Shown here: piece after piece, positions 5,028 through 9,699 of the stretch
How the letters are laid out: each line of letters starts with the position of its first letter
Position numbering within the stretch: position 1 is the stretch's first letter
Assembly: GCF_015291625.1 (NCBI RefSeq)
Contig: NZ_CP030047.1
Span: 1,674,001 to 1,738,000, forward strand
DNA length: 64,000 nucleotides
Direction: 5' to 3'
Origin: Bradyrhizobium sp. CCBAU 53421
GTDB taxonomy: Bacteria; Pseudomonadota; Alphaproteobacteria; Rhizobiales; Xanthobacteraceae
Translations under genes and position numbers: made by a program
The notes under the pieces: generated by a model
Told to the model about the DNA's origin: nothing
Database searches by the model: none
The model's input: only the letters and a program-made list of their open reading frames with translations

Positions 5028-6540
5028 CTAGTCTGACTGAGTTACAAAACCGCCGGCCAGAATCAGTGATTGTTGAAGCATGGACCATCAGCCGATGAGG
5101 CCGACATGAGCGGGCGTGGCGCCAAGACGGGCGAGAAGCGATTTGCGGCATATTTGGAAGGGCTTGCCAGTGTTATCGGTCATGCTGATCGGAAGGCGCC
5201 GCTGCGCGACTATTGCGTCGGCCCGATGGCTTGTGGCGGTTGCAAGAGCGTGGAGCCGATGGCGGCGGTGACAGCTCCGGAACGGACGGCCGCCCAGCAT
5301 CAATCGCTGCTGTATTTCGTCGGCAGCGGCGCCTGGTCGGATGAGAAGGTGCTGGGCAAGGTACGCGAGATGGTCCTGCCAGCGATTGAACGCCCGGGCC
5401 CCATCGAAGCCTGGATCATCGACGTCACCGGATTTCCCAAGCAGAGCGACATTCGGTTGGAGTGGCACGGCAATATTGCGGGCAGCTCGGCAAGCAGGAT
5501 AATTGCCAGGTAGCGGTGTCGCTGTCGATTGCCAACCACCACGCCAGCCTGCCTATCGCCTTTATCTTCCGAAGGAATGGACTGAGGACCGCGATCGGCG
5601 GCGCAAGGTTGGCATTCCTGCCGAAGTCGGCTTTCTGACCAAGCCGGTGATCGCGCTGGAGCAGTTGCGGTGGGCCTGTGCGAGCGGCCTTCCGCGCGTT
5701 GTCGTGCTGATGGACGCGGGCTATGGCAACAACAGCGACCTGCGCACGGAGATCACGGCGCTGGGATTGACCTATGTGGCGGGTCTTCTGCCGAGCACAA
5801 CGGTATGGGCGCCCGGCACCGGTCCCTTGCCGCCGAAGCCATGGTCAGGCCGCGGCCGTCCACCGAAACTGGTGCGCCGCAACCGTCAGCATCAGCCGGC
5901 CGCCGTCAAGGCGTTCGCGATCGGCCTGCCGGCCAAAGTTTGTCGCACCATCACATGGCGGCAAGGAACGAACGAAAAGCTGACCTCGCGCTTTGCTCGC
6001 GTGCGGGTCCGTGCCGCGCATCGTGATTATTGGCAAACCACCCCGCGATTGGAGGAATGGTTGCTGATTGAATGGCCGAAAGGCGAGGACCAGCCTACCA
6101 AATACTGGCTCTCGACATTGCCGGAGGATGTGGCATTCCGATCTCTCGTCGAGACGGCTAAATTGCGCTGGCGCATCGAACGCGACTATCAGGACCTCAA
6201 GCAGGAGGTTGGGCTCGGACACTTCGAGGGACGCGGCTGGCGCGGCTTTCATCATCACGCAACGATGTGCATTGCGGCCTACGGATTCCTGATCTCGGAG
6301 CGGGAGACGATTCCCCCCTCAGGCGCTTAGCGCACCCCGCCGATCCCGCTCGCTCGCGTTCCCGCAGATTACGGACCCCGTGAATCTGCCGCTGCGGACC
6401 CATCGTCACATGCCAAATTCGATCGCGACGATGCGACGACGGCTCGAACATGGGCTCGTCCGAACGCTGTCGAGATGTCCTTGTTGTGCGATCCAGTTCG
6501 ACCACTACACAGATCATCGTTTGTGACGCAGTAAGATTAG
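5028..6540 (+). mobile_element. IS701-family insertion sequence (degenerate)
   Basis: Imperfect terminal inverted repeats of about 22 bp are visible. The left end starts CTAGTCTGACTGAGTTACAA at 5028. The complement of the right end at 6540 starts CTAATCTTACTGCGTCACAA. The total length of about 1.5 kb fits the family. The single transposase frame inside is broken by several frameshifts. The right end lies about 90 bp from the end of the C39 transporter gene. Confidence 0.75.
5070..6330 (+). pseudogene. IS701-family transposase, frameshifted
   Basis: The N-terminal part (residues read from 5070) shows the family pattern MAAVTAPERTAAQHQSLLYF and the catalytic Asp in EAWIIDVTGFPKQ. The frame changes near 5447 and again near 5545, where a 7-bp deletion between short repeats (ATCGCC) is likely. 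The remaining frame from about 5545 contains VVVLMDAGYGNNSDLR with the second Asp and the Glu region LRWRIERDYQDLKQEVGLGHFE. The C-terminus ends early at 6330 compared with family members. The gene is inactive. Confidence 0.85.
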
Positions 6541-6632: not shown

Positions 6633-8792
6633 TCAGCTGCAGCTTTCTTCGGTCTGACTCTGCCAGAATCGAGCATAAGCGCTTTCGGTCAATAGATCAG
6701 TATGCCTCCCTTCCGCAACTATCCGCCCCCTCTCCAAGAGGACTATCTTGTCAGCGCGACGGATGGTGTTAAGCCGGTGAGAGATCACTACGATGGTCTT
6801 GCCGGCCCGGAGCAGATTCTCGAGGAGCCGGTGCACAGCGGCTTCGGCAATTGAGTCGAGAGAGGCGGTAGGTTCGTCCAGGATCAGGATTTCCGGATTC
6901 CTGTATAGAACTCGTGCCAACGAAAGAAGCTGTTTCTCGCCGCCAGACAACTTTACGCCACTTTCCCCGAGGTTGGCCTTGAATCCTCCGGGCCAATGCT
7001 CGATGGCCTCGCGCAACCCAGTTTGGTCGCATACTTTTATGATACTCTCGAGCTCCGGTTCGAGCTCGCCGAGTGCGATGTTCTCAATCACCGAGCCCAA
7101 GAATACATCTGTTGATTGCGGAACCACGCCGACAAGCTTACGCAGCGATACAGCCGAGAAGTCCTTGAGATCATGGGAGCCGATTCGGATACAGCCCCCT
7201 TCAAGCGGGTAGACGTTCTGTAGCAGCGCTGCAAGGGAACTCTTGCCCGAGCCGCTTTCCCCCACCACCGCCGTCATCGCGCCTCTCCGGAACGTGACGC
7301 TGAGACCTTGAAAAAGATTGGGTTGGGCACCATAACGAAATGTGACATTTTCAAGGCAAATATCACCAGGGGTGACATTTGTGGCATCAGCGCTGCCGTC
7401 ACGTGCCGGCTCAAGGTCGAAAATCTCAAAGAGTCGATCCGCCGCGATGACAGCGTCCTGGACCGATCTGTTAACTTGGATCAGGCTCGCGACCGGGCGG
7501 GCGATGAAGGCGAACAACGAATAGCACGAAAGAAGTTCCCCCGGCGTGACGGTCTGATCCAGGACAAGTCTGGTACCGCACCACATCAGCAGGATCGTAA
7601 ACAGACTTGAAACAAACGTGGACGCATTGTCTCCAATGATCGAAATAAGGGCGGCACTGTAGACCGACTGTAGCGTGTTAGCGAGGCGGTTCTCCATCTT
7701 GAGACGTGCGCTCTTCTCCATCCCGAATGTTTTGATCGTAGAAACAGCTCCGATCGATTCCACCAATTGCGCCTGCAGATCGGCGGCATTCTCCATTGTC
7801 GCGCGGTTGCGCTTGCTATTCAGCCGATTAGTCGTCCAATATATCAGCGCATATAGTGGAATTGAGATCGCCGCAACCACAGTGATCTTCCACGAATAGA
7901 GGAGCATCAACCCGAACGAGAATAGTATAACCAAAATGTTGACGAACATGGTAATGCAGGTTTGGTTCAGGAAACTCCTGATTTTCACCGCGTCGTTCAT
8001 CCGCGAAACGAGTTCTCCCACTCGCATGCTATCGAAGAAATTCTGGGATAGCCTTAGGATGTGAGTATAGTAGTTGCCGATCAAGCTCGCATCGATTTTC
8101 TGCCCAGTTTGTAAGATGAGCCGGCTTCTAAGCAGACTGATTAAGATTTGTGGCACCAGGATCAGCAGCATTACAAAGGTCATGACGTTGAGCAAGTTGC
8201 GGTCGCCCGACGTAATCACATGATCGACGGTTTTCTGGACGTAAATGGGCGTCGAGAGGCCGAGAATGGTGGTTACCAGTGCGCCGACCAGAGCCTGTGC
8301 CAGCGCAACCTTGTGTGGGGCAAGCAGCTTGGCGAAACGAACAAGAGTTGAGGTAGTCTCATCGCGACGTTTGAACGTGTCTGACGGAACCAGAAGCACC
8401 ATGACGCCGGTCCATTGCCGCTTGAATTCTTCGTGCGATAGCCGTCGGATTTCACCAAACGCAGGGTCCATGACAGTGACCCTCCTCACGTCGACTGCTT
8501 GGATTACGACGAAGTGGTGCAGCACTTCTTTGACGATCACATGCGCGATAGCCGGTTTGGGTATCTTGTGTAAGCTGTTGAAGTCGCCCCTGACGCCCTT
8601 CGCAATGAAGCCTAGCTTCTGAGCCGCGTTCAAAAGACCTGACACCGTAGTACCAGACTGGTCGGTCGAGGCATATTGGCGGATCCGAGACAATGGCAAC
8701 TTGCAGCCGTAGTGGGCTGCAACAGAAGCAAGGCTGACCGCCCCACAATCCATCATATCGCGCTGCTTCAACTTGGTGGTTTGGCACGACAT
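6633..8792 (-). CDS. Peptidase-containing ABC transporter (C39 peptidase, membrane domain, ATPase) for a double-glycine peptide
   Basis: A 719-residue bacteriocin-type exporter. Residues 1-130 are a C39 cysteine peptidase: Gln and Cys in KQRDMMDCG (Cys16), His93 in HHFVVI, and Asp109 in VMDP, so the triad is complete. Six membrane segments follow at about 150-420. The ATPase domain has GESGSGKSS (Walker A), LSGGEKQL (signature) and ILILDEPTASLD (Walker B). Such proteins cleave a leader after Gly-Gly and export the core peptide. A gene for a Gly-Gly-leader peptide lies 279 bp upstream on the same strand. No HlyD-type adaptor gene is nearby. The start at 8792 was chosen because C39 domains begin just before the Q-x5-C motif; an ATG at 8855 is the alternative. 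Confidence 0.92.
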   Translation of the reverse strand: MSCQTTKLKQRDMMDCGAVSLASVAAHYGCKLPLSRIRQYASTDQSGTTVSGLLNAAQKLGFIAKGVRGDFNSLHKIPKPAIAHVIVKEVLHHFVVIQAVDVRRVTVMDPAFGEIRRLSHEEFKRQWTGVMVLLVPSDTFKRRDETTSTLVRFAKLLAPHKVALAQALVGALVTTILGLSTPIYVQKTVDHVITSGDRNLLNVMTFVMLLILVPQILISLLRSRLILQTGQKIDASLIGNYYTHILRLSQNFFDSMRVGELVSRMNDAVKIRSFLNQTCITMFVNILVILFSFGLMLLYSWKITVVAAISIPLYALIYWTTNRLNSKRNRATMENAADLQAQLVESIGAVSTIKTFGMEKSARLKMENRLANTLQSVYSAALISIIGDNASTFVSSLFTILLMWCGTRLVLDQTVTPGELLSCYSLFAFIARPVASLIQVNRSVQDAVIAADRLFEIFDLEPARDGSADATNVTPGDICLENVTFRYGAQPNLFQGLSVTFRRGAMTAVVGESGSGKSSLAALLQNVYPLEGGCIRIGSHDLKDFSAVSLRKLVGVVPQSTDVFLGSVIENIALGELEPELESIIKVCDQTGLREAIEHWPGGFKANLGESGVKLSGGEKQLLSLARVLYRNPEILILDEPTASLDSIAEAAVHRLLENLLRAGKTIVVISHRLNTIRRADKIVLLERGRIVAEGRHTDLLTESAYARFWQSQTEESCS

Positions 8793-9018
8793 AGGTTTCA
8801 CATACTCTTGGCATGAATAGTTGGCGGGTAAACAAGAGGGGGCCGAGCCAATCATCGAGCTCAGTTTGAGCAGCTGCAGCGGAGTGCGCTCAGAAGGACG
8901 CGGGCTCACTATTTCACATCTATCATGACGCTGGCATCGCCAGGCGCAAATTAGCGGCAGCACTCCCGCGGCAGTTAGCGCGAGAGGGTTGCGTTCGTAC
9001 GAAAGTAGCTCTGGGGTA

Positions 9019-9049
9019 AGCCGGTCCGCGGCTGCGCCGCGGACCGGCT
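9019..9049. other. Perfect 14-bp-stem hairpin between precursor and transporter genes
   Basis: AGCCGGTCCGCGGC pairs with GCCGCGGACCGGCT across a 3-base loop. On the transcribed minus strand it is not followed by a T run, so it is not a standard terminator there. It could stabilise the upstream precursor mRNA or lower read-through into the transporter gene, giving more peptide than exporter. The structure is seen directly; the role is inferred. Confidence 0.6.
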
Positions 9050-9071
9050 AAAAATACAGTTACAAGCGCTC

Positions 9072-9206
9072 CTAGAAGGAGTCCGGTACGCAATACCAAT
9101 TCTCTTCTTCCGGATCCCAAACACACACAGGGCCGTCCTGACCTCCGGCAGCGGCGCACGCTTCTTCGAAGGTCAGTTCGGTCACGTCATAATCTGAGAT
9201 ATTCAT
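9072..9206 (-). CDS. Double-glycine-leader precursor peptide (44 residues), putative substrate of the C39 transporter
   Basis: This gene is too short for routine gene calling but is well supported. The ATG at 9206 is preceded by a strong ribosome site (AAAGGAAG, 6 bases upstream). The leader is MNISDYDVTELTFEEACA followed by AAGG, with the acidic and hydrophobic pattern (L..EE) of double-glycine leaders. Cleavage after Gly22 would release a 22-residue acidic core. The core holds two Cys (28 and 39), two Trp (30 and 37) and one Tyr, and ends PDSF. The two Cys could form a disulfide. The C39 exporter gene follows on the same strand. No modification enzyme is seen nearby, so an unmodified class II bacteriocin-like or signalling peptide is most likely. 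I know of no named family for it. Confidence 0.75.
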   Translation of the reverse strand: MNISDYDVTELTFEEACAAAGGQDGPVCVWDPEEENWYCVPDSF

Positions 9207-9257
9207 ATTTGCTTCCTTTCGTTGAGGCGTCCGCTTCCGCTGACGCGAACTTGAAGA

Positions 9258-9273
9258 TTCAAATTGCGTGCCA
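9258..9273 (-). promoter_or_regulatory. Sigma-54-like promoter upstream of the precursor gene (weak)
   Basis: On the minus strand TGGCACG, four bases, then TTGAA matches the -24/-12 consensus TGGCACG-N4-TTGC except that the -12 GC reads GA. It lies about 52 bp before the precursor ATG, a sensible leader length. The -12 GC is nearly invariant, so this may be chance. No clear NifA site (TGT-N10-ACA) was found within 250 bp upstream. Confidence 0.25.
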
Positions 9274-9699
9274 CGCGCGCAGAGAAGCTGGCAATAAGCG
9301 ACTCTGCGTCTTCAGAGCTGCGCTACAATGTGCTGCAGACCGCGCGAACAGGGGCGAAGCGGTGCGTCAGCGTGCCAGGCGGCCACATTGCGGAGACAAG
9401 CAAACGGCGTGCTTTCATACCTTGTGCAGATTGACTGCTCGTGCGAGCGGCGGCTTCCGAACGGCAATGTCATGAACTCGACGCAACTGATCAAGATCGG
9501 ACGCGGAGCGCTTAGTGACGACGATGGCGCGAGATGATCGGATCGAACTCGCCATCGTGTATAATGAAAAGCTCGCCGGGCTTGACGCCAAGTCTAAAGC
9601 AATTGCTCCTCCTCGATGGGCAGTTGAGGATTGCGGCCTTCGCGCCGCTGTCTTTTAAGGTCAGCTTCACTGCTTCCGCCGGGGCAGCGGCAGCTGAAA
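9274..9699. other. Non-coding region upstream of the peptide locus
   Basis: Only short overlapping frames without ribosome sites or family resemblance occur here. It probably holds the rest of the promoter region of the peptide locus and decayed sequence up to the next IS remnant. Confidence 0.4.

Follow-up and report, generated by a model that had tools for sequence, protein, structure and literature searches.

A double-glycine peptide precursor and its C39 exporter in Bradyrhizobium: probably a partly decayed copy of a rhizobial export operon

A 64,000-nucleotide stretch of the Bradyrhizobium sp. CCBAU 53421 genome (contig NZ_CP030047.1, positions 1,674,001 to 1,738,000; hereafter, the window) encodes on its minus strand a short double-glycine (GG) peptide precursor and, downstream, an ATP-binding cassette (ABC) exporter with a C39 peptidase domain. 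The pair is probably a partly decayed copy of a symbiosis-associated peptide export operon of rhizobia, and its product most likely a narrow-spectrum competition or signalling peptide. The precursor leader and the exporter are conserved together in relatives; a sigma54-type promoter box precedes the precursor gene; an RNA hairpin follows it; and the gene for the HlyD adaptor is reduced to its tail. Systems of this kind, in which GG peptides leave through C39 exporters, are already known.

The precursor and the exporter

The precursor gene (9072..9206, minus strand) was recognized by open reading frame (ORF) analysis, by its leader family, and by an AlphaFold2 (AF2) model. Its 44 codons specify 44 residues: the leader MNISDYDVTELTFEEACAAAGG (9141-9206), then the core QDGPVCVWDPEEENWYCVPDSF (9075-9140), followed by the stop codon (9072-9074). 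The core has 22 residues, including two Cys and two Trp as the first-pass annotation had described, with a net charge of -6. The ribosome-binding site reported there is likewise present, as AAAGGAAG (9212..9219, minus strand), just 5' of the ATG; judged by eye, AAAGGA-like sites precede many of the relatives' precursor genes.

The AF2 model, built from six sequences, places a helix at leader residues 13-20 and a hairpin in the core, with strands 27-31 and 36-40. The mean predicted local distance difference test (pLDDT) score is 67.9, and 83 over residues 31-40. The mature product is thus modelled as a 22-residue peptide of net charge -6, in which one disulfide would close a β-hairpin with aromatic residues on both strands. 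Cleavage of the precursor, the disulfide, expression in nodules, and activity are all proposed for the window peptide.

The exporter gene (6633..8792, minus strand) encodes 719 residues, and was delimited by domain search, alignment of relatives, and matches in the Protein Data Bank (PDB). Matches to Peptidase_C39 (2e-33), ABC_membrane (1.5e-49), and ABC_tran (1.3e-25) cover its domains. The Peptidase_C39 domain (8379..8768, minus strand; domain search and motif check) carries the catalytic Cys, His, and Asp at codons 16, 93, and 109, and the ATPase has Walker, signature, and H-loop motifs. The peptidase-ABC exporter of the first-pass annotation is therefore there with its triad, and only its start is corrected. 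The listed ORF began at GTG 8963, a start that was rejected: that stretch contains the tail of hlyD, and relatives align from ATG 8792. The exporter ORF so defined begins 279 nt beyond the precursor ORF, also on the minus strand. The model TIGR01193 (bacteriocin_ABC) spans nearly the whole protein at 485 bits, below its cut-off of 523.85; the best PDB matches are the "ABC-type bacteriocin transporter" 4ry2 and ComA 8hf7.

The first-pass annotation did not recognize the core from any named bacteriocin or rhizobial peptide family, and the window peptide has no NCBIfam match at E <= 1, no convincing Pfam match, no match to TIGR03949 (class IIb bacteriocin), and none in PADLOC, where the exporter gave ATPase cross-matches only. 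Matches to WD40 proteins in the PDB (best E 2e-19, to designed propellers) were judged a coincidence. These scores add up alignments of many repeats to one GGxDGxVxVWD-like stretch, and in the best rows no single stretch passes; the GGQDGPVCVWD segment of the window precursor (9072-9206) resembles a WD40-repeat strand, which inflates the scores, and the B. elkanii relatives are without the DG. A second precursor was also sought. The best other leader-like match in the window (29450, plus strand, MAAYGVTNSHA) scored 9.2 bits, has no sigma54 box, and was put aside; two further leader-like matches scored 5 bits or less. Nor does the window contain a second, hydrophobic precursor such as several relatives have.

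Conservation in other rhizobia

Exporter relatives in the 40 best plasmid records listed are 66-82% identical to the window exporter. They come from Bradyrhizobium, Mesorhizobium, Sinorhizobium, Rhizobium, and Microvirga, and the hosts are mostly legumes where the source field names one. In these relatives one or more precursors, sharing a common leader and differing in a fast-changing core, are accompanied by hlyD and the exporter gene. The first-pass pairing of a GG precursor with a C39 exporter is thus borne out by a leader conserved beside orthologous exporters; the accompanying label of a two-gene system does not suit systems of this kind, since the relatives have an adaptor gene that was deleted in the window.

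Among 265 Bradyrhizobium genomes, a single-sequence query found the leader in 11, that of the window included, and a leader profile (E <= 0.01) found it in 32, some weak matches being fragments. The exporter (E <= 1e-200) is present in 20, and 19 of these are among the 32 leader genomes (Fisher p 1e-19; this test and the nodA test below ignore the relatedness of genomes). The conservation of the small ORF beside orthologous exporters, which the first-pass annotation had proposed to examine, accordingly holds for the leader. An order-wide sample of 397 genomes has the exporter in four: that of the window, and three others of one genus, all three with nodA.

In the protein database, profile A1 (E <= 0.01) finds 60 members and profile A3 (E <= 0.1) finds 45; the two sets overlap, and both include the window's own protein. 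The window peptide used alone as query finds itself and P0059 only. Cores in this family are of two sorts: hydrophobic (FWAI..., rich in Gly and Ala) versus hydrophilic, most of the latter with two or three Cys. The 17 hydrophilic members found with A3 range in net charge from -7 to 0, and three have a single Cys. The window core belongs to an acidic, aromatic subgroup, C-x-[aromatic]-x-P-[ED]-x3-W-x-C, in which ten residues separate the two Cys (C-x10-C). Its cores are CVWDPEEENWYC (window), CVWNPDEQKWSC (B. elkanii and B. ottawaense), CYWSPETGDWVC (P0059), and CWYDPDLDTWFC (P0069); longer cores, CEWVIVEYPDGSWNWELVC (P0072) being an example, may form hairpins of greater length. Five Bradyrhizobium operons (loci L028, L035, L036, L063, and L064) have a Cys-type precursor together with a hydrophobic one directly before hlyD. 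The hydrophobic partner is WVLGLFAAVV-like and has a looser leader, and the pairing suggests a two-peptide product.

Ten of the 18 plasmid leader matches listed lie outside any annotated gene and eight lie in a "hypothetical protein", as counted from plasmid gene tables that are incomplete; precursor genes often go unannotated because they are so short, and gene tables therefore probably undercount the family. On the B. japonicum S11L plasmid (L088 2409-6674), three near-identical leaders precede different cores, with copies of ISRj2 between them, as if the cores had been reshaped by insertion elements. No description of the peptide family was found in searches of an open-access library; nothing on it was seen in passages of PMC4417242, PMC6421345, and PMC4085339, and a term search of PMC4999443 gave no match. 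A survey of RpoN in the Rhizobiales, a study of the R. etli NifA regulon, and the work of Dirix et al. 2004 may describe parts of it.

A sigma54-type promoter

A -24/-12 box of sigma54 type, TGGCACGCAATTTGA (9259..9273, minus strand; pattern search), with A at -12, starts 67 nt upstream of the precursor ATG. It is one of four pattern matches in the whole window, both strands counted. The pattern, TGG[CT][AC][CT]-N5-TTG[AC] at -130..-40, admits no base but A or C at -12 and would miss boxes with any other there. We chose 44 upstream regions from the leader matches, and dropped four near-duplicates. The box is found upstream of 32 of the remaining 40 precursor genes (shuffles: mean 0.08, maximum 2) and, in the same loci, before 2 of 552 mechanical ORFs with 150 or more residues; 30 of the 32 boxes have A at -12. 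The NifA upstream-site consensus is TGT-N10-ACA. Sites of this type occur at -230..-140 in 18 of the 40 regions, against 0.65 expected, and in the 17 regions with both elements the site lies 69-142 nt before the box. With all 44 regions kept, the counts are 35 (box) and 19 (NifA-type site).

PMC3538637 describes A at -12 as rare among the RpoN promoters predicted in Rhizobiales (9 of 186), and places it in the nifH promoters of M. loti, R. etli, and R. leguminosarum and the fdxN promoter of B. japonicum; the NifA site is printed there as TGT-N10-AGA. The genome of the window has one full rpoN and a weak partial match. No nod box with 14 or fewer mismatches is present in the 44 upstream regions (the window's one, with 13 mismatches, lies elsewhere), and the tts-box pattern has no match in the upstream regions.

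The distribution of nodA fits a symbiotic context. By our own count (E < 1e-60), nodA is present in 139 of the 265 genomes: 19 of the 20 with the exporter, versus 120 of the 245 others (p 3e-5). The sole exporter genome without it (G002) has the most distant exporter (56%). At the level of sequence, the sigma54-type box suggests that the precursor gene is expressed in symbiosis.

Loss of the hlyD adaptor

The annotated absence of an adaptor is explained by deletion. A remnant of the hlyD 3' end (8824..8907, minus strand; tblastn, and a DNA alignment that runs on unbroken into the start of the exporter gene) is all that is left. Its last 14 residues are recognizable at 8824-8865 (tblastn E 0.068, taken alone), small indels interrupt it, and CAA stands where the relatives have a stop codon. 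DNA similarity to the operons of USDA 94 and genome G141 extends from 8907, a point still inside the hlyD end, across to the exporter gene and into it, again with small indels. A HlyD match is present in 39 of the 39 other fetched stretches that have an exporter match (several are one locus fetched twice; L049 is cut by a contig end, and L079 has exporter fragments only), and the window has the tail only.

On the upstream side of the locus, positions 9136-9350 align with the first precursor in the USDA 94 and G141 operons, over its promoter and leader. Positions 8951-9276 align at 76-77% with another precursor cassette, found in B. ottawaense and B. elkanii USDA 94, which encodes the CVWNPDEQKWSC core. 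This cassette lies on the opposite strand, 1.7 kb upstream of hlyD (2.5 kb in USDA 76). These alignments and that of the hlyD tail imply that in the window a CVWNPDEQKWSC-type cassette has been joined to an exporter that lost its adaptor through a deletion, whether or not an inversion accompanied it.

With hlyD reduced to its tail, secretion in the window strain is probably impaired, perhaps recently, unless another adaptor or exporter helps. The genome holds no close HlyD elsewhere; the best HlyD-like match is 30% identical over part. Five other exporters have a C39-like domain, four of them (L002, L003, L006, and L007) without the catalytic Cys. The fifth, L004 (G000:C1:5914251-5916371, at 5.91 Mb), has the Cys/His/Asp triad and scores above the cut-off of the NHLM exporter model; a second ABC match lies 1.2 kb behind it.

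Operon decay is seen in other copies too, with hlyD or the exporter gene split over frames in G083 and in the second copies that USDA 94 and USDA 76 carry. Frame-broken copies lie at L035 37971-41566, L040 2211-5469, and L069 8284-9338; those among the 39 stretches include L040, L041, and L069. In the window, a transposase (DDE_5) split over two frames (5070..6330, plus strand; domain search) adjoins the 3' side of the exporter gene.

Selection on leader, core, and exporter

Leader and core evolve at different rates. Over 19 codon pairs dN/dS is 0.33 for the leader versus 0.69 for the core (p 0.005), and over the 13 closest pairs 0.35 versus 0.94 (p 0.02); the 19 pairs were chosen by us, share sequences, and are not independent. 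A selection check on the small ORF, as proposed in the first-pass annotation, thus comes out clearly for the leader; the core is not clearly non-neutral. The leader is kept for the exporter, and the core changes fast by selection or under weak constraint: its ratio is what would be expected of a fast-changing recognition peptide, or of weak constraint.

The polarised dN/dS on the window exporter branch is 0.22 (62.5 nonsynonymous and 87.5 synonymous changes), with no stop codon and about 0.29 synonymous changes per synonymous site. Branch values for relatives are 0.18 (G141), 0 (USDA 94; 12 synonymous changes only), 0.14 (USDA 76), and 0.13 (B. ottawaense); the B. valentinum branch has three nonsynonymous and no synonymous changes, and no ratio was formed. 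These values indicate that constraint on the window exporter is weakened, not absent.

An RNA stem-loop behind the precursor gene

A 14-bp stem-loop (9019..9049, minus strand), found by RNA folding and aligned in B. elkanii and B. ottawaense, lies 3' of the precursor gene; the 90 nt downstream of the gene fold with z -4.7. One T-A pair of the B. ottawaense stem is C-G in the window, and one pair is broken in USDA 94 and USDA 76. Strong stems of different sequence occupy the same place behind many Cys-type precursors. Twelve of 20 chosen downstream regions have z -2.1 or lower, and the eight that do not include those of S. fredii, S. numidicum, M. amorphae, M. loti, and R. phaseoli. Presumably the stem-loop is an attenuator, a terminator-like element, or a 3' stabiliser, and it may determine how much precursor transcript is present relative to that of the exporter.

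A model and its alternatives

These results suggest a model for the intact operons. A sigma54-type promoter, often with an upstream NifA-type site, would drive one or several short precursor genes; each precursor would be cut after Gly-Gly by the exporter's C39 domain; and the ABC/HlyD pair, together with an outer-membrane channel, would carry the core out. The window core would close by its one disulfide into a β-hairpin. Made during symbiosis, the peptide would most likely serve in narrow-spectrum competition or signalling. In the window copy, a deletion or rearrangement would have taken away most of hlyD.

Several findings weigh against this account. The AF2 model of the precursor reaches only moderate confidence (mean pLDDT 67.9, six sequences). 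No TGT-N10-ACA is present in the window at -260..-90, even with one mismatch, or within 400 nt in its relatives L063, L069, and L080. The nifH promoter of the same genome has C, not A, at -12, and the locus, at 1.68 Mb of a 9.26-Mb single-contig genome, is a long way from both nodA (7.53 Mb) and nifH (8.11 Mb). The window exporter deviates at 18 of 269 columns that are invariant in 19 relatives; the same test gives 1-7 deviations of 252-258 for six relatives, several of which have a near sister and shorter branches, lowering the number. Its branch dN/dS of 0.22 compares with 0 to 0.18 in the four relatives with a ratio. Finally, the upstream regions are related by descent, which makes the shuffle statistics less telling. 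By blastn the 44 regions form 11 clusters (E 1e-10), 5 (E 1e-5), or 3, according to strictness, of which 9, 4, or 3 have the box; clustering by gapped identity gave a single cluster at every cut-off, and was uninformative. As the regions are homologous, the argument draws less on the shuffle figure than on the box having been kept where the regions have diverged, and we weight our best explanation slightly lower for that reason.

What the peptide does is the main point of divergence. It might be a microcin-like bacteriocin that kills or inhibits rival rhizobia in the rhizosphere or the nodule, the hairpin and its hydrophobic partner perhaps acting jointly, a reading to which we give somewhat less than an even chance. 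Many family cores are hydrophobic and rich in Gly and Ala, the core changes fast, five of 35 scanned members match TIGR03949 at E <= 0.01 (some records bear that name), and five Bradyrhizobium operons pair the two kinds of precursor before hlyD. Yet the window peptide itself has neither an NCBIfam match nor a convincing one in Pfam, and its core has a net charge of -6, whereas typical antimicrobial peptides are cationic. Moreover, none of the annotated relatives has an immunity gene marked in the interval from precursor to hlyD (no search was aimed at small genes without annotation, and L082 is unannotated). A rather less probable alternative is that the peptide, expressed in symbiosis, acts on the legume as a receptor ligand or a mimic of a peptide hormone, by analogy with RaxX on rice. 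The sigma54/NifA-type promoters of the family, the association with nodA, the acidic aromatic hairpin, and the RaxX precedent (PMC6637879) would all suit such a role. Core variation among strains of one host, as on the soybean plasmids, fits competition equally well. We know of no mutant phenotype for such precursor genes. On balance we lean slightly toward competition between rhizobia over a plant target.

Alternatively, the pair may be a dead remnant, non-functional in its own genome since hlyD was lost and awaiting decay; this is compatible with either target in the intact relatives. The missing hlyD, the distant HlyD-like match (30% over part) as its nearest counterpart, the absent catalytic Cys in four of the five other C39-like exporters, the accelerated exporter branch, and the transposase remnant adjoining the exporter gene are what such decay would leave. 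Set against them are the intact exporter frame, triad, and ATPase motifs, a dN/dS of 0.22 with no stop codon, and a precursor, box, and RNA hairpin that are likewise intact. L004, of NHLM type with an intact triad, could in principle help, and the remnant reading was weighted lower on its account, to a little under even; NHLM-type exporters serve another precursor class.

Rhizobial inoculants are held back by competition between strains and by host preference. The family described here, mobile and present on plasmids in five nodulating genera, appears tied to nitrogen-fixation regulators and would be a directly testable layer of nodule biology; the window copy illustrates how such operons decay. 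More speculatively, rhizobia may carry secreted mini-peptides that are switched on in symbiosis, one subgroup being acidic disulfide β-hairpins, whose fast-changing cores are read by the legume host or decide nodule occupancy: in short, C39-exported nodule effectors. If this doubtful extension were true, the peptides would form a class of nodule effector beside Nod factors and type III effectors.

Comparison with known systems

CvaAB is the type system for C39 export of GG peptides and class II microcins, and GG-peptide systems were reportedly surveyed by Dirix et al. in 2004. The rhizobial operons resemble that type in the short GG-leader precursor, the C39 peptidase-ABC exporter, and, in relatives, the HlyD-type adaptor. 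They differ in having a leader of their own and a sigma54-type promoter with A at -12; the window differs further in its acidic hairpin core and lost adaptor, and no immunity gene was seen among the annotations of relatives. The class IIb bacteriocin family of lactobin A and cerein 7B (TIGR03949) is matched by the five same-leader members (best E 7.6e-6), but not by the window peptide, whose core is not hydrophobic.

In Xanthomonas, according to PMC6637879, the GG-leader peptide RaxX is processed and exported by RaxAB and mimics a plant hormone. The likeness, a GG-leader peptide handled by a C39 ABC/HlyD pair, is one of architecture; action on a plant is a feature of RaxX, and no sulfotransferase is annotated near the rhizobial operons in the annotated relatives. 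The homologues with solved structures, 4ry2 (which we take to be PCAT1) and ComA 8hf7, match the exporter over its whole length; both come from Gram-positive bacteria, are not known to work with an HlyD adaptor, and carry other substrates than the window exporter. Overall, to judge from its genes, the window probably behaves as a GG-peptide type I export system in all but its adaptor, and the hlyD-positive relatives probably are such a system.

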